A DNA stretch of 15,601 nt from Firmicutes bacterium UBA1440 (lineage in GTDB: Bacteria; Bacillota; Clostridia; Peptostreptococcales; Anaerovoracaceae), in contig DCTM01000028.1 of assembly GCA_002329565.1 (NCBI GenBank), positions 1,578 through 17,178 on the forward strand. Reading direction: 5' to 3'. Under the pieces are notes generated by a model. That model did not search any database, was not told the origin of the DNA, and saw only the letters and a program-made list of their open reading frames with translations. Made by a program: the position numbers and the translations under genes. Positions 587 through 14,999 of the stretch are shown in pieces (the stretch's first letter is position 1; each line of letters opens with the position of its first letter).

Positions 587-1126
587 CTATTTTCCCAGGC
601 GTTCCTCGACAATTTTGATAATCGTTTCAACGTCAGCCATGGCCCCTTTGCCGATGGTACCGCAAGCCAAATAGGCTTTCTTAGGTTCGATAATCTCAAA
701 TCCATACTTTTTCAGTTTTTCGAGATTATCCTGCACAATCGGATTTTCGTACATATTGGTATTCATCGCAGGCGCGATGTAACGCGGAATTCCGTTGATT
801 GCCAAAGTTACCGAGGTCAGCATATCGTCCGCGATACCGTTTGCCATCTTTCCGATGATGTCCGCGGAAGCCGGCGCAATTAAAAGGCAGTCGGCTTTTG
901 TTGCGAGCGAGATGTGCTTGACCTCGCAGGGATAATCCTCTTGAAAGACGTCTGTATATACTCTGTTCTTCGACAGCGATTGCAATGTCAACGGCGTGAT
1001 GAAGGCTTTGCCACCCGCTGTCATAATCACATCCACGTTATATCCGTCTTTCGTCAGGGTGTTTACAATATCGGCCGCTTTGTATGCGGCGATGCTTCCG
1101 GTTACTCCGACAATAATATTCTTCAT
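587..1126 (-). CDS. coaC: Phosphopantothenoylcysteine decarboxylase, monofunctional CoaC
   Basis: 179-residue flavoprotein that decarboxylates 4'-phosphopantothenoyl-cysteine to 4'-phosphopantetheine with FMN, in the cytosolic CoA pathway. Family marks seen: N-terminal nucleotide-binding stretch GVTGSIAAYKA (about 7-17), the active-site histidine in VKHISLA (about 69-75), the substrate motif PAMNTNMY (about 118-125) and the C-terminal LACGTIGKGAM with the cysteine of the substrate-clamp flap. The length fits the stand-alone form, not the roughly 400-residue CoaBC fusion. The AGGAG ribosome site overlaps the coaB stop and only 4 nt separate the two genes, so translation is probably coupled. 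Upstream coaB supplies the substrate. A different HFCD flavoprotein is possible in principle but unlikely beside coaB. Confidence 0.95.
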   Translation of the reverse strand: MKNIIVGVTGSIAAYKAADIVNTLTKDGYNVDVIMTAGGKAFITPLTLQSLSKNRVYTDVFQEDYPCEVKHISLATKADCLLIAPASADIIGKMANGIADDMLTSVTLAINGIPRYIAPAMNTNMYENPIVQDNLEKLKKYGFEIIEPKKAYLACGTIGKGAMADVETIIKIVEERLGK

Positions 1127-1130
1127 AATC

Positions 1131-1919
1131 TTAACTCCTCTGATTAATCAGCGTGATTACATTGCGTGCGATTTCATCCGCAATTTGCTGCTTTGTCTCT
1201 AAACGCGTATAGTCACCGTTGGCCGTCAGCAAATACCCGATATGGGTGTCCGCCGTGATCTCGCTCGAATCGTTGGCAAGTACAAAATCGCAGGAATTCT
1301 TCCGCAAAAGCTCCATCGCGACAGCAAGCAAATTCTTCGTCTCAACGTTGTTCAGCAACTTAAAGCCCACAAGTACGGCGTCCGGCTGCAAGCTTTTGAA
1401 CATCGAGATCAATTTGGGCGTTTGTTTCATAAATATGGCCAAATCTTCAATGTTCGAGCCAACCTTTTTGTCGCGGTTGATCAACTTATTGTTCGCCTCG
1501 ATGCATTTCCCGATAAAATCAGCCAGCGCCTCCTCATCCCGGAAGTCGCTTGGGACGCATTCGCTCAATCTGTGCGCGATAAACGCCGAAAGGTCTGCTG
1601 TAGTAGTCAAACGATCAACGGTATAATCGCTTACGGCCATCGAATGAACAACCGCATCGATTTTATCTGTGGTCAGTATGCGCTTCAGCGCAGCTTCGGC
1701 GCTAATCACTCCCTCTATATTTACTTCTTCCAGGCAGCCCAACTCCGGTACTATTGTACCTTTCTCACATACGTAGTAGATTTTTTCAATCTTATCTCCA
1801 TATCGCTTTACAAAGGCCTCAGCCGTGAGGCTTCCAAGTTTCCCGGTTCCCGTGTTTTTAATTTTCCTTACTCGGTCTATTCTTTCTGTGGTTCCCCCGG
1901 CAGTAATAATCAATTTCAA
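1131..1919 (-). CDS. coaB: Phosphopantothenate-cysteine ligase, streptococcal-type CoaB
   Basis: 262 residues. Joins 4'-phosphopantothenate to cysteine using a nucleoside triphosphate. The N terminus LIITAGGTTERIDRVRKIKNTGTG matches the CoaB nucleotide-binding start. HSMAVSDYT (about 91-99), KKTPKLIS-like text (here MKQTPKLIS), GFKLL and LANDSSEI are the landmarks of the separate CoaB found in streptococci and enterococci, rather than the CoaB half of CoaBC. The start codon is TTG at 1919-1917, with AAGGAG ten bases upstream. No in-frame ATG precedes it. It is the first gene of a two-gene operon with coaC, behind two candidate promoters at 1958-1966 and 2042-2069. Confidence 0.93.
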   Translation of the reverse strand: MKLIITAGGTTERIDRVRKIKNTGTGKLGSLTAEAFVKRYGDKIEKIYYVCEKGTIVPELGCLEEVNIEGVISAEAALKRILTTDKIDAVVHSMAVSDYTVDRLTTTADLSAFIAHRLSECVPSDFRDEEALADFIGKCIEANNKLINRDKKVGSNIEDLAIFMKQTPKLISMFKSLQPDAVLVGFKLLNNVETKNLLAVAMELLRKNSCDFVLANDSSEITADTHIGYLLTANGDYTRLETKQQIADEIARNVITLINQRS

Positions 1920-4509: not shown

Positions 4510-5892
4510 TTATAATGCTTTGAGAATCTTGTCTACGGTAGCCTTCGCATCGCCAAAACACATATGCGTATTTTCTTTGAAGAACAGCGGATTCTGAACG
4601 CCCGCATATCCGGTGTTCATCGATCTCTTGAATACGATTACCGAACGAGCCTTCCAAACCTCCAGTACCGGCATGCCGGCAATTGCGCAGTGCGGGTCTT
4701 CTTGTGACATCGGGTTGACCGTATCGTTTGCACCGATTACGAGTACAGTATCCGTTTCGGGGAAGTCCTCGTTGATTTCATCCATTTCCAGAACGATATC
4801 GTAAGGAACCTTGGCATCGGCGAGCAAGACGTTCATATGCCCCGGAAGACGCCCCGCGACAGGATGGATAGCGAAGCGAACATTGATACCCATTGACCTG
4901 AGTTTTCTTGAAATATCCGCGACCGGATACTGCGCCTGTGCTACAGCCATGCCATAGCCCGGTGCTATGATAACCGATTCGGATTGCTTCAGTCTTTCAG
5001 CAACTTCCTCAGGCAGGATTTCGCGATATTCGCCCTCTACGACAACGGAGCTCTTGACCTCATTGCCGAAACCGCCTGCGATTACAGAGATAAATGAACG
5101 GTTCATAGCCTTGCACATGATATATGAAAGGATGGCGCCGGAGGAACCTACCAACGCACCCGTTATGATTAGCAAGTCATTGGAAAGCATGAATCCCGAG
5201 GCAGCCGTTGCCCAGCCGGAGTACGAGTTCAGCATCGATATTACGACCGGCATGTCCGCTCCTCCGATTGAGGCGACAAGATGCAAACCGAAAATCAAAG
5301 CGAGGGCAGTAACAATAGCCAGGTACAGCATAGAGCCGTCTTCATGCAGGAAGAGGCCCATCAATACGGCCATTGCAACCAAAATTCCGAGGTTGATTAC
5401 ATTCTTACCCGGCAACATCAAAGCTTTCGAGCTGAGAATACCTCGCAATTTTCCAAATGCGATGATAGAGCCTGTGAATGTTACCGCACCGATGAATACG
5501 CCGAGATAAATTTCAGAAAGCTCTACGTTGAGCATGGTGCCGCTTACATGGTTTTCGCCCCACAGTATCTTTAAGAAGCTGTTGTATCCAACCAGGACAG
5601 CCGCCAGTCCGACGAAGCTGTGCAGGCAGGCAATCAACTCGGGCATTCCCGTCATCTCGACCTTGCCCGCCAATATTATACCGATTATTGCACCTATCAG
5701 CATAGCGACCAGCATATATGCCAGGGCATCCGGGTTTGCGCTTGCAATCGTAACTGTCAGCGCTATAGACATACCGGCAATACCGTAAAGGTTTCCTCTT
5801 TTTGCAGTCTCCTGTTTTGAGAGCCCCGCAAGACTCAATATAAATAAGATAGCCGCAACAATATATGCTACTGCGATTATTCCTTGTGTCAT
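4510..5892 (-). CDS. pntB: NAD(P) transhydrogenase subunit beta
   Basis: 460 residues, the usual length for PntB. Together with PntA it couples hydride transfer between NADH and NADP+ to inward proton flow across the membrane. The N-terminal half is a bundle of hydrophobic helices (domain II). [19 protein letters not shown] places a histidine at residue 91, the position of the proton-channel histidine of the E. coli protein. The C-terminal third is the NADP(H)-binding domain [46 protein letters not shown] and [17 protein letters not shown] are all present. The AGGAGG site overlaps the pntA stop, with a 10-nt gap, so the two are co-translated. Two terminators follow. In an anaerobe the enzyme would supply or balance NADPH for biosynthesis. 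Confidence 0.97.
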
Positions 5893-5902
5893 GAGCTGCC
5901 TC

Positions 5903-7447
5903 CTATTCCTTATTGAACATCTTTAACATTCTGTGTGTAACTGCGAATCCGCCGAAGATATTGATGCTTGTAAGCAGTATGCCGATAAACGCCATAACGG
6001 TGATTGCGTCCACAACAGGACTGATTTGCAAAAGCACCCCGACAATGATAATGCCGGAAATCGCGTTAGTTACTGACATCAGAGGCGTGTGCAACGCGTG
6101 GGTTACGTTCCAGACAACGTAATACCCGACTATGCAGGCCAATATGAAAACTGAAAAGTGTCCTAAGAATTCCTGCGGTGCATAAAGTGCGATCACCGCA
6201 AATAAAGCAGCTCCGCAAATTCCCAGTATGCCTTTGAGCGTTCCCATGCCCTTTTCCTTTTTCGGCTTTTCCTCTGCTTTCGGAGCCTCAGCCGCCGCCT
6301 GTTTCGGTGCGGCGCTGACGCTGATCGGCGGTGGCGGGAACGTAACATCTCCTTCTTTGACAACACACATATTGCGTAAGATTACATCATCGAAGTCAAT
6401 GCAGATATTGCCGTCTTTTTCTTTTGAGAGTAATTTCGTCAGGTTGACGAGATTCGTGGAATACATTTCCGAAGATTGTGCCGGTAAACCTGCCGAGAGA
6501 TTGGTATATCCTACAATCTTGACGCCCGATTCTGTAACGAAGACTTCGTCAGGTACCGTATACTCGCAATTTCCGCCCGAAGATGCCGCCATATCGACGA
6601 TTACAGAGCCGGGACGCATACTGTCTACCATTTCCTTTGTAATCAATTTAGGTGCCGGTTTGCCCGGAATCTGGGCCGTTGTGACGATGATATCAACTTC
6701 TTTGGCCTGCTCTGCAAAGAGCTCCATTTCCGCCCTGACAAACTCATCGGACATCACCTTGGCATATCCGCTCTCGGTGGAGCCGTCTTCTTCTCCTTCA
6801 AATTTTAATCTAAGGAATTCGCCGCCCGTGGATTCGATTTGCTCAGCGACCTCAAGTCGTGTATCGAAAGCACGTACAACAGCACCCAGAGAATCGGCTG
6901 TACCGATGGCAGCCAGTCCCGCTACGCCTGCCCCGATGACAAGAACTTTAGCCGGAGGAACCTTTCCTGCGGCGGTAACTTGTCCGGTGAAGAAGCGTCC
7001 GAAATGATGTGCTGCTTCGATAATTGCACGATATCCTCCTATGTTAGCGATAGAGGAGAGGGCATCGAGCGACTGTGCCCTGGAAATCCTGGGAACCATG
7101 TCCATCGCCAGTGCGTTGATCTTTTTGGCAGCCAGTTTCTCGGTTAACTGCGTATCTACTCGCGGAGAAAGGAAACTTACTAAAGTCATTCCCTCCCTCA
7201 GCTTCTCGATTTCGTCGTCCAGAGGGGCATTAATCTTGTATATGATCTCAGATTGCCATACTGTATCCCTATCCGCGACTTCGGCTCCCGCCTCCCGGTA
7301 AGCGTCGTCGGTAAAACCGGCTTTTTCGCCCAATCCGCGCTCAACGGTCACATCGAAACCCAATTTCAGTAACTTCTTTACCGAATTTGGTGTGGCGGCC
7401 GCACGGGTTTCATTGGCGACAATTTCTTTTGGAATACCTATTCTCAT
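5903..7447 (-). CDS. pntA: NAD(P) transhydrogenase subunit alpha
   Basis: 514 residues, the single-chain form that joins the NAD(H)-binding domain I with four membrane helices. The start [17 protein letters not shown] is the alanine-dehydrogenase/PNT N domain. [22 protein letters not shown] (about 120-141) and the Rossmann loop GAGVAGL (172-178) followed by the acidic loop region near FDTR (194-197) form the NAD(H) site. A proline/alanine/lysine linker spans about 370-400. Four hydrophobic segments follow from about 404 to 502, including [29 protein letters not shown] text typical of PntA. GGGAG lies 8 nt upstream of the ATG. It is the first gene of pntA-pntB, behind the promoter at 7593-7621 and three Rex-like sites. 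Confidence 0.97.
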
Positions 7448-7815: not shown

Positions 7816-8565
7816 TTAAAATATCGTCTTTAAAAAATCTTTCATACGCGGGTTCTTAGGATTTTCAAAGATCTCATCCGGCTTACCCTCTTCAACAATC
7901 TTGCCCGCATCCATGAATACAACTCTGTCCGCCACTTCCCTGGCAAAGTTCATTTCATGCGTGACAATAATCATCGACGTATGCTGCTCCGCAAGCTTAC
8001 GCATTACGGTAAGTACTTCGCCCGTGATTTCCGGATCGAGTGCACTCGTCGGTTCGTCAAAGAGCATCAGGTCCGGCTGCATCGCCAATGCACGCGCGAT
8101 AGCAATACGCTGTTTCTGTCCTCCGGAAATCTGTGCCGGATAAGCATCTGCCTTATCCGCAAGCCCTACAAGTTCCAGAAGCTGCCGCGCCGTGGCCTCT
8201 GCTTTACTCCTGGAGATCTTCTTGACCTTCATCGGAGCATATGTGATATTTCTCAGGCATGTCATATGCGGGAACAGGTTGAAGTGTTGGAATACCATGC
8301 CGGTAGTTCCGTACAAGTCCATCTCGCCTTCGGTGATCGTCTCGAGCTCGTTGATGCTACGCAAAAGTGTGCTCTTCCCGGATCCCGACGGTCCGATAAT
8401 AGCCACGATTTCTCCCTTATGCATGCAGAAATTGACATGATCGACTGCTGTGCAGTTCGAGAATTCCTTCACTATGTCCTTCATTTCCAGAATGACATCT
8501 CCTGCAACCAGGTCCTTCTTCGGAGTAATTCTGACGATGCCCCTATCTTTAATCTTTTTGTGCAT
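7816..8565 (-). CDS. Polar amino-acid ABC transporter ATPase, with an internal deletion
   Basis: 249 residues of the GlnQ/ArtP type, energising import by the adjacent permease. Walker [10 protein letters not shown] (58-66), Q-loop [10 protein letters not shown] (Q93), signature SGGQKQR (147-153), Walker B LMLFDEP (166-172) and the switch histidine in VTHEM (H203) are intact. Two oddities appear. About 25 extra residues precede the normal start of the family. The segment between Walker A and the Q-loop is about 17 residues shorter than in E. coli Gln[10 protein letters not shown] runs directly into TTGMVFQ, where relatives carry a loop with a VRR/IRQ-like end. The start ATG follows the permease stop without a gap, with GGGAGG inside the permease end. 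Substrate cannot be told from the ATPase. Confidence 0.93.
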
Positions 8566-9258
8566 TTACTTCACCTCCCTTTCATCGTATTTGGAATATC
8601 TCTTCTCCAAATAGTTTGAAAGTACGGTAAGTACTGCTGTAAAAATAAGATAAATGGCCGCCGCAATCAGATATGCGGTAGTATCCACGTCTCTGTTTAC
8701 TGCACCTCTTGAAGCCTTCATCAACTCACCTACAGTGATGATGGATGCAAGTGCCGTATCCTTGATCAGAACGATGGCTTCGTTCGATACAGGAGGCAGG
8801 ATAATCTTCATCGTCTGGGGGAGCACGATGCCAAACATCGTCTGGCGCTTCGACAGCCCGAGAGCATGTGCCGCTTCGTATTGGCCGCGATCGATACCGT
8901 TGATGCCTCCTCTGTAGATTTCGGCAAAGTATGCCGCATAATTCAGCACAAAGGTAATTACCGATGTGGTAAACGGATCCAACTTGACGCCGTATGCCAT
9001 CGGTAAGAAGAAATAGAAGAAGTACAATTGCAGTATCAGCGGTGTACCTCTGAAAATAAATACATATGTTTGACAGATGGCTTTAATGGGCTTGAACTTC
9101 GCATTGCTGCCGAGCGCGAACGGAAGGCCGAGCGGCAATGAAAGTACGAGCGTCCAAATAAACAACTTAACCGTCACCCAGGCACCTGCCATGAGCGACG
9201 GCATAAGAATTGTCAAATAAGCCATCGTGTCTTGAAATCCGGCTATAAACTCACTCAC
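8566..9258 (-). CDS. Polar amino-acid ABC transporter permease
   Basis: 230 residues of the HisM/GlnP family, with about five hydrophobic segments. The N-terminal helix region SLMAGAWVTVKLFIWTLVLSLPLGLPFALG, the motif FIFRGTPLILQLYFFYF and the EAA loop YEAAHALGLSKRQTMFGIVLPQ, which docks on the ATPase, are the hallmarks of this permease type. The start codon is GTG at 9258-9256, with AGGAGG nine bases upstream. No ATG fits better. It is the middle gene of lipoprotein-permease-ATPase. A single permease gene suggests a homodimeric pore. Confidence 0.94.
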   Translation of the reverse strand: MSEFIAGFQDTMAYLTILMPSLMAGAWVTVKLFIWTLVLSLPLGLPFALGSNAKFKPIKAICQTYVFIFRGTPLILQLYFFYFFLPMAYGVKLDPFTTSVITFVLNYAAYFAEIYRGGINGIDRGQYEAAHALGLSKRQTMFGIVLPQTMKIILPPVSNEAIVLIKDTALASIITVGELMKASRGAVNRDVDTTAYLIAAAIYLIFTAVLTVLSNYLEKRYSKYDEREVK

Positions 9259-9274
9259 TTACTTTATCCTCCTC

Positions 9275-9297
9275 GGAGCCCCCCTGCAGAGGGCCCC
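9275..9297 (-). promoter_or_regulatory. Strong hairpin between binding-protein and permease genes
   Basis: Minus strand: GGGGCCCTC, loop TGCAG, GGGGGCTCC. All nine positions pair (two are G-U). It sits 32 nt after the binding-protein stop and ends one base before the GAGGAGG ribosome site of the permease. It has no T-run, so it is not a simple terminator. Such hairpins can protect the upstream mRNA from 3' decay and lower expression of the downstream gene. Confidence 0.6.
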
Positions 9298-9329
9298 TGT
9301 CTATTCAAATCTGCTGGTCGTTCAATTTT

Positions 9330-10172
9330 TTATTCTGCAGTTATCGGTTCGAGAATTACGATGTTCGTTCCAAACCACTTTTCGCTGATCTTCTTGGCTT
9401 CGCCGTTTTCAATCAGGGCAGCAATAGCCTCGTTGATCTTATCTGCAAGGTCAGTCTCACCCTTTCTGCATCCGATGGCATAGAAGTCATCGCCGAAGTC
9501 AAAGTCGCAAACCTTCATTACATTATCCATCTTATTGTTCTTGTATTCGCCGAGTACCTGGTCCACAACCATGCAATCCGCTCTGCCACCCTTCATAGCC
9601 ATGATGGCTTCATCATAGGTCTTGTATTCGAGAACTTTATCCGCGAAGGAATCCCATTCTTCGTTTGCTTTCATAGCCTGTAGCGAAGCCGAATCAACCT
9701 GGGTCGCAATATTGTAATTTGCAAGATCGGCTGCCGATTCTATCTTCACATCATCTCTGAGAGTCATGATGACGATCTTGTTGTTGAGGTACTGATCCGT
9801 CAGAGCCATGTTCTCTATTCTCTCGGGAGTGACCGACATACCGTTCCAGATGCAGTCGATATTTTTCGATTGCAGTTCAAGTTCTTTGGAATCCCATTCG
9901 ATCGGAACGAATTCCACTTCAACTCCGAGCTGCTCTCCGACCGCTCTTGCAAGGTCGATATCAAATCCCACGAGTTCGTTGTTTTCATCTCTGAATCCCA
10001 TCGGTGCAAACGTATCGTCGAGACCGACTTTCAGAACTCCGTTATCCTGTACATATTGCCATCCGCTCACCGCATCCGCATCATCGGATTTTCCGCAACC
10101 TGTCAATGCGAACATTCCGAGGATAAGGGTCAACATCATCAGGAACGCCATTCCTTTTCTCATTTTTAGCAT
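9330..10172 (-). CDS. Polar amino-acid-binding lipoprotein of an ABC transporter
   Basis: 280 residues from the ATG at 10172-10170, chosen because GGAGG lies nine bases upstream. An in-frame ATG 45 nt further up has no ribosome site. It has a signal peptide with lipobox LTGC, lipidated Cys26, so the protein is tethered outside the membrane. The body is a type II solute-binding fold of the PAAT/SBP_bac_3 family: LKVGLDDTFAPMGFRDENNELVGF, then DIDLARAVGEQLG, WNGMSVTPERIE with the arginine that usually grips the ligand carboxylate, and DQVLGEY. It captures an amino acid for the permease and ATPase downstream. Ligand identity (glutamine, arginine, cystine or other) is not readable here. It is the first gene of its operon, behind a consensus promoter. 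Confidence 0.95.
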   Translation of the reverse strand: MLKMRKGMAFLMMLTLILGMFALTGCGKSDDADAVSGWQYVQDNGVLKVGLDDTFAPMGFRDENNELVGFDIDLARAVGEQLGVEVEFVPIEWDSKELELQSKNIDCIWNGMSVTPERIENMALTDQYLNNKIVIMTLRDDVKIESAADLANYNIATQVDSASLQAMKANEEWDSFADKVLEYKTYDEAIMAMKGGRADCMVVDQVLGEYKNNKMDNVMKVCDFDFGDDFYAIGCRKGETDLADKINEAIAALIENGEAKKISEKWFGTNIVILEPITAE

Positions 10173-10223
10173 ATTAACTTTCCTCCGTTTCCTTTTTAAT
10201 TTTATAAATTTATTCATGCTTTT

Positions 10224-10367: not shown

Positions 10368-12431
10368 CTACAGATAATTAAGCGGGTTTTTCGGTGTGCC
10401 CATGTAATGCACTTCAAAGTGCACATGCGGGCCGGTGCTCCTGCCGGTGCTGCCCACATTGGCGATGTGCTGGCCTTGATAAACCTTTTCTCCCGACCTG
10501 ACAAGCAGCTTGCTGCAATGTGCATAAAGAGTCACATAGCCGCCGCCGTGATCAATTTTGACCACGTATCCGTAAGAACCGCTGTAACCGGATGAAATGA
10601 CTGTACCGCCGTCGGAAGCTCTGATATGAGTACCCGTCGCGCAGGCCAGGTCGACTCCGTAGTGCATTCGGCCCCATCTCGGCCCGAACTTAGATGTCAA
10701 TTTTGCTCCCGTCACAGGATATTTGAAAGTGCCCGTACCTTTTTTTACCGGCATAGGCTTCGTCCCTACGTAGACAATTGCGGCGGACGGATTGGAAATC
10801 GTCTTCGCTTCCAGTTCGATAGAAGCAATCTGCACGCCGTTGTTCTTGACAATCTTACGCGTGACCTCGCGTCGGCCGTTGACACCCGCAATCTTGACTC
10901 GGCTTTCCCCCTGGTACATCGAAGCGTTGTTTTCATATTTGGTTTCATATGCTATGTCTTCAATCGCAGTAGTAACCTCGACCGTCTGCACGGTCAGCAT
11001 AGGTACAGCCTGTGTTAGGACAATCTGCTGCCCTATGCTCAAGCGCTCAGGCCGTACAAGCGGGTTCGCTGCTTGCAGATCCGACATCTTAATGCCGTAC
11101 ATCGAAGCGATGCCGGAAAAAGTTTCACCCGCCTGAACGGTATGCGTTTTGACGGATTCCGCACCTGTCAGGATCTTGTAGGCTGCTTCATCCGGACTTT
11201 TTATATATCCAAGTTTCGTATCGAGTTCTTTGATTTCAATATTTTCGGCAAACCCAACATCCTCATAGACCGTCATATCGCTGTCTGTAGTATATTTTTC
11301 CAGTACAAGATTCAACGCGGCCTTGGCCGATTTTTCACTGTCGAGGATAGCCACACGTATTCCGTCTATGTATATCGCATATCCTTTGGCTGTCATATTC
11401 TGCATGTAGGTCAGCTTTTTCAGAACCTGCTCTGTGCCGTCGATATCCTTGCCGGCCGAAAGCACGCGTTTGAAGGCAATGTCTTTGTCGGGATCAATGG
11501 CAATTTCGGCGTTGTGCTCGCTTGAAAGCTTGTCACTTACCAAATCCAAGAGTTTAACCACATCCCGCTGGTCGTCTACAAGTCCGAGCACCCTGCCGTT
11601 GTAAGAGTACTCGTAAGCAGTCAACTGGTTGAGGACAGCCGCAGCCGCAAACAAGGTCAGCAATGTTGCAGCAAGTATCCCGAGCAGCCTGCTCTTGTTG
11701 CGGTCCGCCCAATCGCGCATGCGGTTGAACTTTCCCGTCCCGCGTCGTGCCGCCCTGCGCGCTTTGCCGGCGAGTTCCTCGTTGCGGCTGTCCATCCGGT
11801 TGATGTGCCTGATAAACTTCTCCGCAAATACCTCGTCTTTGGCAACAAGAAAATGCTTGACTCTCTGCCAAGACCGATACAGTTTGAGGTACATGCGCCG
11901 AGCTTTGCGCTCCTTATGCGGTTTCCCTTTAAAAATATATGCTCTCAGATGTAAGATTTTTTCCTTTGTCTTTTTCAGGCCCCGGCGAATCGGCTCCCAG
12001 ATTGCAATCTCGATCTTATCGCTGAGAAAAGGGGCATCCTTAATCATTTGCACGACCGATGCAGGCTTGTCGGCTGCCGTCGTCTCGGCTCCTTCCGTCT
12101 GCGCTTTGCCATCGGCCGTGTCCTCCAGAACCGTATCAAACAATTCCGAAAGCGCCGATTCCTCGATTACCGGGACATTCTGTTCGGATTCCCCGTTCAC
12201 GCGATTCTGCGGCGCTGCCTCTTCAGCAATATTCTCTTTTGTATGCTCATCTTCCAACGCAGCTTCGAACAATTCCCCGAGCGCTTTTTCCGATATGGCC
12301 GGTTCTCGCTCGGCTTTCTTGCGGTCTTTAGACTTCCTTTTAGAGTTGCTCTTACCCTTTTTCGGCGTATCGTTCGTCTTGTTCTTTTCCTCGTTATTTA
12401 CTTTGTTTTTATCTTTTGGGAATTTTGCCAT
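10368..12431 (-). CDS. Membrane-anchored LysM-G5-M23 peptidoglycan hydrolase with a long cytoplasmic tail
   Basis: 687 residues. Residues 1-248 are charged, with a very basic part from about 148. One membrane helix follows at 249-269, so the rest should lie outside (type II topology). Outside are an unassigned alpha/beta region (about 272-420), LysM (about 428-473, THTVQAGETFSGIA), G5 (about 478-557) and a C-terminal M23 endopeptidase. The zinc ligands H590, D594 (HYGVD) and H671, with catalytic H638 (YAH) and H669 (HVH), are all present, so it should be active on peptidoglycan cross-bridges. The tail has two copies of a motif like P-x-I-x-E-x-ALxELFxxxLED (about 44-61 and 88-104). The ATG lies inside the end of the DnaD-domain gene, overlapping by 34 nt, with GAGG eight bases upstream. 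The cell-wall role is firm from the domains. The tail's function is unknown. Confidence 0.93.
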   Translation of the reverse strand: MAKFPKDKNKVNNEEKNKTNDTPKKGKSNSKRKSKDRKKAEREPAISEKALGELFEAALEDEHTKENIAEEAAPQNRVNGESEQNVPVIEESALSELFDTVLEDTADGKAQTEGAETTAADKPASVVQMIKDAPFLSDKIEIAIWEPIRRGLKKTKEKILHLRAYIFKGKPHKERKARRMYLKLYRSWQRVKHFLVAKDEVFAEKFIRHINRMDSRNEELAGKARRAARRGTGKFNRMRDWADRNKSRLLGILAATLLTLFAAAAVLNQLTAYEYSYNGRVLGLVDDQRDVVKLLDLVSDKLSSEHNAEIAIDPDKDIAFKRVLSAGKDIDGTEQVLKKLTYMQNMTAKGYAIYIDGIRVAILDSEKSAKAALNLVLEKYTTDSDMTVYEDVGFAENIEIKELDTKLGYIKSPDEAAYKILTGAESVKTHTVQAGETFSGIASMYGIKMSDLQAANPLVRPERLSIGQQIVLTQAVPMLTVQTVEVTTAIEDIAYETKYENNASMYQGESRVKIAGVNGRREVTRKIVKNNGVQIASIELEAKTISNPSAAIVYVGTKPMPVKKGTGTFKYPVTGAKLTSKFGPRWGRMHYGVDLACATGTHIRASDGGTVISSGYSGSYGYVVKIDHGGGYVTLYAHCSKLLVRSGEKVYQGQHIANVGSTGRSTGPHVHFEVHYMGTPKNPLNYL

Positions 12432-13654
12432 GCTTTCGCCTCTTCGGTGCGCTCAGCGAAACAAGCGCATCGCTCTCCGTTCTCAGTTATCCCTGTATCC
12501 TTACAGATCATACAAATGTATTTAACTTCCATATAATCGGCAGGATACCCGTTATCCGTGAGGGTGGCAGCCTTGGTGGCGACGAGATTCTCAATCTCAT
12601 CGTGTGTGCTCCGTATCAGCTCAGACTTATCCACCGCACCTGACACCATCAAGCGGGACAACTTCGTATTCTTTTCTCTGATCTCTTTTTCAATCTTTGC
12701 AATCTGCGGCAGGGATTTGTAGATTCGGTTCCTGCGATCTTTTGTCTCGCGTTCGCTCTTTTGCCGCAAATAGTCGTAATATTTAAAGACAGTGCCCGGA
12801 GATATCTCTCCGTTGCCCGCCGCAACGGCGCTGTTGCCTTTGCTCGGATCTCTGAGCACTTTGTCGATATATTTAATGTTCGGGTTTGTAATACCGGCAG
12901 TCTTCGCACAGGCTTCAAGGATCTTGTCGATTGAAAGATCAAGCTCATCAAACCATGCACGCATAATGCGTTTTTCTTCCTCCGTAGGATTGCGCATGAA
13001 ACCGAGGGCTTTGAATATCCTGCGGTACAGAAATGCGCGTTTGTCCATATCGGCCAGGTATTCATCGAGAGCTGCCACATCTGTCAGTCCCTTGGTCGCC
13101 CACTCCTTAACAACCTTGGCGATATATTTCACATTATCTTTTTTCAAAGTTCCGCAGCAATATGTATATGCGTAGACTACCATTTCAGGCGTAATGTCGA
13201 AGTCGTCGAGCCATGAGTTTATCTCCATAATTTCACTGTTTCCCAGCGGTCTTGCAACCGCCTTCTCGACTGATTTAAACATATCCTTAATAATCTTGTC
13301 GGACATAGGCCCTTGCTTGTCCGCGGAATCGTCGTCCTGCTTGCTTCCGTCCCCATACAGCATCTCTCGCAAATTCATGAATTCGAGCGTTTTCTTATCC
13401 TTGCCGGTGCGTTTCACAAGGCCCAAGGAAATCCAATAATCCCAAGCCTTTTTAACTTCATATTCTTCAAGCATCAGCAATCCGGCAAGCTCTTCATCCG
13501 AAATCTCCCTGTGCATTTGCAAGTACATCAAGGCCATTAAATAGACCTTGACGTAATCGCCCGGGGCCGTCACCATGTATTCGTTTATGTATATATTTTC
13601 CACACCCGTCTCATAGAGATAGTGGGTTTTTGCAGTTGCTTGCTTCAGTTTCAT
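12398..13654 (-). CDS. DnaD-domain replication protein fused to a helicase-loader N-terminal domain, no AAA+ domain
   Basis: 418 residues from the ATG at 13654-13652, chosen for GGAG seven bases upstream; the reading frame is open for 24 more codons without a ribosome site. Residues about 1-100 look like the winged-helix DnaD N-terminal domain. Two DnaB_2/DnaD-type repeats follow, about 125-195 and 208-275, each ending in a KYIAKVVKEW / KYIDKVLRDP helix. Residues about 295-418 change character: a basic helical stretch (RRNRIYKSLPQIAKIEKEI), then LTDNGYPADYMEVKYI and a CxxC...CxC zinc ribbon (C381, C384, C396, C398). From memory, that is the order at the start of clostridial DnaC/DnaI helicase loaders, just before their ATPase. 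Here the protein ends 20 residues after the last cysteine. Following dnaB by 10 nt, it likely acts in helicase loading at replication initiation. How ATP-dependent loading is done is unclear. Confidence 0.88.
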   Translation of the reverse strand: MKLKQATAKTHYLYETGVENIYINEYMVTAPGDYVKVYLMALMYLQMHREISDEELAGLLMLEEYEVKKAWDYWISLGLVKRTGKDKKTLEFMNLREMLYGDGSKQDDDSADKQGPMSDKIIKDMFKSVEKAVARPLGNSEIMEINSWLDDFDITPEMVVYAYTYCCGTLKKDNVKYIAKVVKEWATKGLTDVAALDEYLADMDKRAFLYRRIFKALGFMRNPTEEEKRIMRAWFDELDLSIDKILEACAKTAGITNPNIKYIDKVLRDPSKGNSAVAAGNGEISPGTVFKYYDYLRQKSERETKDRRNRIYKSLPQIAKIEKEIREKNTKLSRLMVSGAVDKSELIRSTHDEIENLVATKAATLTDNGYPADYMEVKYICMICKDTGITENGERCACFAERTEEAKAWQNSQKIKTK

Positions 13655-13664
13655 GGGATCGCTC

Positions 13665-14999
13665 CTATCCTTGATAATTGCTCTTGTCCACGAAACGCGT
13701 GTACTTTTCCAGCCACGCCAACTCAACGGTGCCTATCGGTCCGCTTCTGTGCTTGGCTATGATGACATCACACACGCCCGGTTTCTGTGATTCTTCTTTT
13801 GTGTAATAGTCGTCACGGAACAGGAATAAGACAATGTCGGCATCCTGTTCAATCGAGCCCGATTCTCTAAGGTCGGACAGCATCGGCTCGTGACTTGCGC
13901 GCAGTTCGGGCGCTCTCGAAAGCTGAGAAAGCACGAGAACCGGGCAGTCCATCTCCCTTGCAAGTAATTTCAGGAAACGCGATAACGCTGAAATCTCCTG
14001 TTGACGCGACTCAGAACGCGCGTCATAGGTCATTAATTGCAAATAGTCAAGTACGATCAGATCAAGGCCGTGTTCGATCTTCGTTCTCCTGCACTTGTTC
14101 TTAATTTCCATTACCGAGATACCGGGTGTATCGTCAATGAAAATTTTTGCATTTGAAAGCGTATCGATTGCTATCGTCAAGCTGTCCCAGTCCGCTCTGT
14201 CAAGCTGTCCGGTTTTCAGCTTTTGCATCTCGATACGCGATTCCATCGACAGTAGTCTCTGTCCGAGCTGCTCCTTAGGCATCTCCATTGAAAAAATCAA
14301 TACTGACGCGTTGCTCTTCAAGGCTGCATTTTGGGCGATGTTCAAGGCAAATGCCGTCTTACCCATCGCAGGCCGCGCCGCGAGAATAATCAAGTCGGAC
14401 TTCTGCAGTCCGTTCGTCTTGGCATCCAAATCGCGGAATCCCGTCGAGATGCCGGTAATCTCTCCGTTGAGATTGCTTGCCCTGTCTATCATCTCGATGT
14501 TCTCAAGCAAGACATCTCGCAGCGGAATGATGTCTTTGGCCTGCCGGGATTGTGAAATCTCAAAAACACTGCGCTCCGCAAGATCGATGACCGCCTCTGC
14601 GTCCATCTTGCCCGAATAGCTTTCCTGTGAAATTTCCTCTGAAACCGAAATCAGCTTCCGCAGCATCGCCTTTTCAGCGACAATCTTAGCATATGAGCCT
14701 GCGTTGGCTGTCGAAGGCACATCAGCGGAAAGACTTGCTATGTAAGCTCTCCCTCCTGAAAGTTCAAGCGTGTTTTTCCTTTTCAGTTCCTCGGATACCG
14801 TAAGAGTATCCACAGGTACATTTCTTCTGTAGAGGTCGGAGATGGCTGCAAAAATTTCTTTATGTTTTGAGTCGTAAAAATCTGTCGGCCGCACTTCCTC
14901 CAATACATCGAAGAGCGCGTCACGGCTCAACATCGCCGCACCCAGCACCGACCGTTCCGCATCGTCGTTGTGCGGTGGAATTCTTTCCGTGATAGACAT
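13665..14999 (-). CDS. dnaB: Replicative DNA helicase
   Basis: 444 residues, normal length. The hexameric helicase that unwinds DNA at the fork (called dnaC in Bacillus subtilis). The N-terminal helical domain opens PPHNDDAERSVLGAAM. After the linker comes the RecA-like motor: STGFRDLDAKTNGLQKSDLIILAARP into Walker A with MGKT (212-215), Walker B LIVLDYLQL (314-322), LSQLSRAPE (358-366), MLSDLRESGSIEQDAD (373-388) and the arginine-finger region AKHRSGPIGTVEL (415-427). No intein. GAAAGGAAG precedes the ATG. It follows rplI by 17 nt, the usual Firmicutes arrangement, and its stop overlaps the ribosome site of the DnaD-domain gene, its likely loading partner. Confidence 0.98.
   Translation of the reverse strand: MSITERIPPHNDDAERSVLGAAMLSRDALFDVLEEVRPTDFYDSKHKEIFAAISDLYRRNVPVDTLTVSEELKRKNTLELSGGRAYIASLSADVPSTANAGSYAKIVAEKAMLRKLISVSEEISQESYSGKMDAEAVIDLAERSVFEISQSRQAKDIIPLRDVLLENIEMIDRASNLNGEITGISTGFRDLDAKTNGLQKSDLIILAARPAMGKTAFALNIAQNAALKSNASVLIFSMEMPKEQLGQRLLSMESRIEMQKLKTGQLDRADWDSLTIAIDTLSNAKIFIDDTPGISVMEIKNKCRRTKIEHGLDLIVLDYLQLMTYDARSESRQQEISALSRFLKLLAREMDCPVLVLSQLSRAPELRASHEPMLSDLRESGSIEQDADIVLFLFRDDYYTKEESQKPGVCDVIIAKHRSGPIGTVELAWLEKYTRFVDKSNYQG

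Follow-up and report, generated by a model that had tools for sequence, protein, structure and literature searches.

Several described systems stand close to the one reported here. In Clostridioides difficile, a DnaD-like protein with a DDBH1-DDBH2-DDBH2 architecture (CD3653) is encoded beside the helicase loader (CD3654), as described in PMC5204125; in Bacillus subtilis, co-loaders of the DnaD/DnaB type work with the zinc-domain loader DnaI (PMC13326638). DciA (PMC5109545, PMC9912922) and phage lambda P are described as helicase loaders that have no ATPase of their own, DciA-type loaders being ATP-independent according to PMC8213410. The same source reports that the helicase-binding domain of Escherichia coli DnaC on its own, an ATPase-less loader part, both activates DnaB and loads it in vitro, the latter to about half the wild-type extent. 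Here we analyze a 15,601-nucleotide stretch of the genome of Firmicutes bacterium UBA1440 (family Anaerovoracaceae, order Peptostreptococcales; contig DCTM01000028.1, positions 1,578 to 17,178), hereafter the window, in which a dnaD-loader fusion gene encodes a 418-aa protein. Judged from its sequence, this protein combines a DnaD-type co-loader, made up of a winged helix and two DnaB_2 domains, with the four-cysteine N-terminal domain of a clostridial DnaC/DnaI-type loader. In contrast to CD3653/CD3654, to which it is likened through their published description and not by direct comparison, the fusion is one protein with neither the DnaD tail nor the AAA+ ATPase. It likewise differs from the B. 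subtilis system, where a tail grips the loader ATPase, in having neither of these and in being joined covalently, and from the DnaC domain, which is a laboratory truncation of a non-homologous domain, in being a natural form fused to DnaD. We consider this fusion, with a probability of roughly 0.72, to be the family's chromosomal replicative-helicase loader rebuilt as one ATPase-free protein, and we infer that it would bind, open and load the helicase.

The fusion gene begins with an ATG at 13654, 7 nt downstream of an AGGAG (13662-13666), and ends with a stop at 12398-12400. An earlier note on this DNA had read the frame as tandem DnaD repeats running into the N-terminal domain of a loader, and the domain searches agree. 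Pfam finds DnaB_2/DnaD (PF07261) in two stretches (E 2.3e-26) and nothing for the loader N-terminal domain, while NCBIfam finds a DnaD domain together with NF005304 (PRK06835), the clostridial-type loader model of 330 positions, where residues 289-402 align with profile positions 9-121 only (E 6.8e-25). The names given to homologues ('DnaD domain protein' and the like) miss the loader domain because Pfam has no match to it. An hhalign comparison of the fused part (10 rows from the Anaerovoracaceae, f1, and the related family f9) with the N-terminal domains of two-gene loaders (12 rows) gives 100% probability and E 8.8e-43 over 124 columns. The four cysteines named in the earlier note, C381, C384, C396 and C398, do not vary among 86 aligned homologues, and unfused loaders have their cysteines in these same columns.

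Inspection of the sequence past this cysteine motif reveals where the two designs part. Unfused loaders continue through a conserved linker, in which Q121, S131, L137, F142 and F145 are invariant in 12 proteins, into the AAA+ ATPase. That linker is gone in the fusion, and neither Pfam nor NCBIfam matches an AAA+ ATPase with Walker motifs (PF01695) in the protein. The fused proteins of f1 and f9 stop within about 25 residues of the last cysteine, and two from family f16 stop after 31 and 40. As the earlier note had stated, no loader ATPase follows the gene: the next gene encodes an M23/G5/LysM peptidase, and NF005304, run against the whole genome, hits no AAA+ part on the contig that carries the window.

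The fusion protein is present in 114 of 119 sampled Anaerovoracaceae genomes (91 genera) and in all 68 with a completeness of 90% or more and a contamination of 5% or less. The match runs through the cysteine region in one stretch in 110 of the 114 (counted by eye), falls into two stretches of one frame in G060 and G076, and is cut by contig ends in G042 and G074. In twelve family genomes the aligned stretch contains a stop; three of these were opened (L024, L036, L050), and in each of them a single unbroken frame holds both parts. The names of homologues include Anaerovorax, Emergencia, Aminipila and Sinanaerobacter, and the homologue from Aminipila luticellarii (P0206), a species placed in Anaerovoracaceae by NCBI, has a row identical to that of genome G071 in the DnaD-part tree described below. 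Of 30 family loci, 25 have a same-strand helicase gene upstream, at a distance of no more than 60 bp in 10; the window locus was scored in this count from a longer upstream TTG frame and, measured by its ATG, would be an eleventh. Comparison of the helicases of fused-loader genomes (34 rows, some from duplicate genomes) with those of two-gene genomes (9 rows) shows nine positions that differ in consensus and no readable pattern.

Outside the family, the corresponding parts are separate neighbors. The first 30 loci opened there, which are the best-scoring ones (L070-L099), all have dnaD directly upstream of a full loader gene, and dnaD adjoins an AAA+ loader gene on one strand in all 73 unfused loci opened (median gap 8 bp), a set chosen by its matches rather than at random. 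The earlier note had described dnaB as followed by two separate genes; the adjacency of dnaD and loader holds in these loci, whereas the helicase gene is mostly not in view at them. When 108 loci or proteins were classified with profiles made for this analysis, 48 were fusions without AAA+, 53 were two-gene pairs and seven carried DnaD alone, these last comprising five single proteins without context and two with a diverged loader below the AAA+ threshold. None of the 108 combines DnaD, loader domain and AAA+ in one frame, and an ATPase domain is absent from the frame of all 48 fused proteins. Unfused DnaD proteins mostly carry a C-terminal tail of 30-66 aa, and a short motif, chosen after the tails had been viewed, occurs in 54 of 78 tails against a shuffled mean of 6.1 and a shuffled maximum of 13. 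In fused proteins (n=48) the DnaD and loader matches lie a median of 9.5 aa apart (range -85 to 23), and the DnaD tail is absent.

Long DnaD frames of about 500-720 aa in other families were considered as further fusions and rejected in those opened (L148-L170), where the AAA+ loader is a separate next gene. One of them, at L150:5680-7821 (-), encodes a 714-aa DnaD protein whose first ~400 residues have no Pfam or NCBIfam match at E 0.01 and whose loader is again the next gene. Family f53 (L175 of G279, L174 of G353) has a strongly diverged two-gene arrangement of DnaD and full-length loader; the L175 loader keeps a Walker-like APPQSGKT, and with the loader model L175 and L174 reach no better than 2.6e-25 and 2.7e-27.

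The fusion profile search covered 391 genomes of the class and finds the fused form beyond the Anaerovoracaceae. Family f9 has the same fusion in 3 of 3 genomes. In f50, a family represented by 11 genomes and alone in its order, all seven loci opened are fused (404-450 aa, no AAA+), an eighth fusion in G479 was seen by match range only, and three genomes (69, 77 and 89% complete) have neither a DnaD match nor the loader domain. Families f78 and f16 contribute two genomes each (G427, G447, G319, G482; L201-L204) with forms of 560-613 aa that have extra DnaD repeats, the same C-terminal loader domain (NCBIfam loader match E 1e-13 to 9.4e-7) and no AAA+. These four are small-genome Clostridia of 0.9-1.8 Mb. 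Two of the five sampled f78 genomes were opened; G407 is without any loader domain, and G529 and G563 lie outside the opened set. The f16 genus g154 appears mixed: G319 and G482 show only the fused form, and five other sampled genomes seem to keep a loader, with loader-model matches of E 3.6e-39 to 5.7e-47. Renewed searches of 24 genomes, f53 among them, gave no loader above the cut-off.

A rapidly built tree from 63 rows of the DnaD part groups f1 with f9 (98), sets f50 beside the DnaD of Acetivibrio-type two-gene systems (89, inside a clade at 100), and sets f78 plus f16 (98) beside the two-gene families f14, f19, f52 and f70 (92), so that the fused state amounts to three changes on this tree. 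A single clade of all fused rows is rejected for the DnaD part (p 2e-47), as are f1+f9+f50 (2e-39), f50+f78+f16 (4e-6) and f1+f9+f78+f16 (0.007). In contrast, a tree of the short loader domain (127-130 columns) does not confirm a separate origin for f50, which it joins to f1/f9 (90/94 and 99/98 in two runs). In that tree one clade of all fused forms is not rejected (p 0.13), and neither is f50 with its DnaD sisters (p 0.088). The placement of f50 there may reflect convergence of a short domain or its transfer. We hold three separate origins of the fusion to be likely.

The relatives of the window genome share not only the fusion but also the absence of a separate loader, which scores above the curated cut-off of NF005304 in 0 of the 119 family genomes. 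Below the cut-off, the matches listed include the fused domain itself, DnaA-sized and IstB-sized frames, and scattered frames of ~281-296 aa that look like mobile-element DnaC. In a 118-genome sample of the order, a loader above the cut-off is found in 0 of 17 family genomes, 0 of 3 f9 genomes and 93 of 98 others; the five that fall below it are G155, G161, G163, G177 and G203, four of which are less than 90% complete. The class sample has such a loader in 318 of 391 genomes. Among the single-contig genomes, PF01695 finds only frames of DnaA, RuvB, Clp or FtsH size in G088 and G095, and the same frame sizes plus one prophage-like DnaC beside a RusA-like gene in G071, these labels resting on frame length, match range or sequence and not on a family search. 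The single-contig genomes without a mobile-type loader gene are 98-99% complete. Within the recognizable DnaC/DnaI types, the loader ATPase is missing from the family and has not moved elsewhere. A replacement by DciA also finds no counterpart, since PF05258 matches 0 of the 119 family genomes and 0 of 24 others in a search whose control was positive in 7 of 14 known genomes; lambda P was outside the search. According to PMC5109545, dna[CI] and dciA are both absent from a few species, and these may include members of the Anaerovoracaceae, a family that appears to be an exception within Peptostreptococcales.

The window genome itself is a 68-contig draft of 1.48 Mb, 90.6% complete, in which the sole PF01695 match is an istB beside istA. 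That locus (L001, contig C4) has an IS21-type istA with one ambiguous residue, and the two genes adjoin fragments whose sequence resembles type I restriction specificity subunits.

A mechanism that would fit an ATPase-free loader can be outlined from these observations and from published work. The ancestor would have had the usual adjacent dnaD and loader genes, whose reading frames became joined with loss of the DnaD C-terminal tail and of the whole loader AAA+, presumably in one step. The product would link the DNA- and DnaA-binding module of DnaD to a helicase-binding zinc domain, such that the DnaD part, recruited to an origin opened by DnaA, would carry the zinc domain with it. By analogy with the N-terminal domain of E. 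coli DnaC, the zinc domain would hold the DnaB ring open by binding energy alone and let single-stranded DNA enter, and primase or DNA binding, rather than ATP hydrolysis, would end its contact with the helicase. In this scheme the ATPase would be a timer made dispensable by covalent tethering. For the contact itself, PMC3791466 describes an interaction of the DnaI N-terminal domain with the C-terminal domain of the helicase. For C. difficile, PMC5204125 reports that loader Walker mutants appear to load or activate the helicase and not to restrain it, and that helicase activity needs primase. Section 32 of PMC13326638 describes that in B. subtilis DnaB, the co-loader, uses its C-terminal tail to bind the DnaI ATPase domain, and because the tail grips the ATPase there, a joint loss of both makes sense. 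Should the clostridial tail act likewise, both faces of a single contact would have been lost and replaced by a covalent joint.

Several observations weigh against the fusion as an ATPase-free loader. Five of the 119 family genomes (60, 80, 83, 84 and 89% complete) have no fusion match. A structure model of the fusion built from 86 sequences has a mean predicted local distance difference test score (pLDDT) of 83.6 and a predicted template modeling score (pTM) of 0.40, with confident domains and uncertain joints, and its DnaD parts match the solved DnaD pieces 2zc2, 2i5u, 2vn2 and 2v79 in Foldseek and VIA-align. In contrast, searches of solved structures with the fusion, its loader domain and the N-terminal domains of unfused loaders gave no believable match for the loader domain; by its own statement VIA-align barely tested parts other than DnaD here, and a single-sequence model of the loader domain alone was poor (pLDDT 64.5). 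On the side of mechanism, the loader ATPase domains also touch the helicase in the B. subtilis/B. stearothermophilus complex (PMC3791466). The same source describes the N-terminal domain of E. coli DnaC as not homologous to that of DnaI, so the behavior of the former serves as analogy only. DciA and DnaC use one helicase site, which DnaI is only predicted to share (PMC9912922). As for the missing ATPase, neither PF01695 nor NF005304 hits a frame of DnaA size in the window genome, whereas 15 of 15 others have one, which indicates that genes are missing from this draft and that the absence of the ATPase rests on the relatives. In the family search, known profiles were applied to no more than 16 candidates from each genome, and an unrecognized AAA+ protein could act in trans. 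Finally, DnaC/IstB ATPases of mobile-element type occur, scattered, in several family genomes and in some of f9 and f50.

The earlier note had named three findings that would speak against its reading, and none of them was observed: the loader-domain match is strong, no frameshift joins two genes, and no sampled family member has a separate loader above the curated cut-off. It had also offered two alternatives, loading without an ATPase on this subunit or with an ATPase supplied in trans. The first is now the better supported, given that neither a conserved DnaC/DnaI-type ATPase nor DciA was found. The second is the main rival and in our view unlikely. The nucleotide switch would come from DnaA, with its DnaC-related AAA+, or from some diverged AAA+ protein, and the fusion would be a helicase-binding adaptor only. 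DnaA-sized frames (449-478 aa) in 15 of 16 genomes and the comparison of DnaA and DnaC AAA+ elements in PMC8213410 would suit such a division of labor, but bacteria with a full loader also have DnaA, so that DnaA is no added part, and no extra DnaC/DnaI/IstB-type AAA+ is common to the single-contig genomes. Less probable again is a fused domain that tethers or restrains the helicase without loading it, the helicase ring assembling around single-stranded DNA unaided. Self-assembly is conceivable in that PMC5204125 describes the C. difficile helicase as a ring-maker that is monomeric at low concentration; however, the domain and its cysteines are kept in the opened fused lineages even though all other loader parts are gone, a pattern that suits a required function more than a remnant. 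We give very little weight to a mobile-element DnaC or an IS21 IstB serving as the loader in trans: such genes are at hand in the window genome (istB), in G071 (prophage DnaC) and in several others, but they are scattered, single-contig G088 and G095 have none, and istB stands with its transposase. An assembly error, frameshift or decaying pseudogene, conceivable for a gene taken from a 68-contig draft, is refuted by the presence of the protein in 114 of 119 family genomes, single-contig ones included, with its cysteines conserved.

Seen as an ATPase-free loader, the fusion bears on the role of the helicase-loader ATPase, which is an open question because the isolated DnaC domain already loads, as reported in PMC8213410. 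Nature seems to have deleted this ATPase throughout a family and again in other lineages, in every case alongside a DnaD fusion. The family suggests that replication can start with a motor-free loader, and it would offer a natural system for asking whether the ATPase is a loading motor or just a brake and timer, with Aminipila luticellarii as a named species with a single-contig genome. We hold it an even bet that the ATPase-free chimera of DnaD and helicase-binding domain is a further class of bacterial loader that replaced the two-protein type by the same route in at least three clostridial lineages, which would mean that a loader can do without its ATPase when its helicase-binding domain is attached to the origin-binding partner. 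A survey of titles and the beginnings of abstracts in open-licence PubMed Central found no report of a DnaD-loader-domain fusion.

Table 1. Features of the fusion gene and the adjoining helicase gene, in window coordinates.
Feature	Position	Strand	Remarks
dnaD-loader fusion gene, P0001	12398..13654	-	418 aa; homologues in 114/119 family genomes
dnaB, replicative helicase, 444 aa	13665..14999	-	directly upstream of fusion; PF00772 + PF03796
DDBH1 winged-helix domain, residues ~14-106	13337..13615	-	structure matches to DnaD N-terminal domains 2v79, 2vn2
First DnaB_2/DDBH2 domain, residues 126-199	13058..13279	-	PF07261
Second DnaB_2/DDBH2 domain, residues ~208-270, limits approximate	12845..13033	-	PF07261, second stretch; model helices 225-268
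Short linker, residues ~271-288	12791..12844	-	at the place where unfused DnaD proteins mostly have their tail; low model confidence at 273-281
Loader N-terminal domain, residues 289-402, helicase-binding zinc-ribbon by homology	12449..12790	-	NF005304 + hhalign
First cysteine pair, C381 and C384	12503..12514	-	invariant in 86 sequences and in 12 fused/unfused rows
Second cysteine pair, C396 and C398	12461..12469	-	invariant in 86 sequences and in 12 fused/unfused rows

Ten base pairs separate the dnaB stop from the start of the fusion gene, which in turn overlaps by 34 bp with the first ATG of the cell-wall peptidase gene that follows. Elsewhere in the window, two adjacent genes at 587-1919 (-) read like the decarboxylase and synthetase halves of CoaBC. 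Two more at 4510-7447 (-) read like the NAD(P) transhydrogenase subunits PntB and PntA, and beside them the region 7816-10217 reads like an amino-acid ABC transporter, all three assignments coming from the sequence itself.

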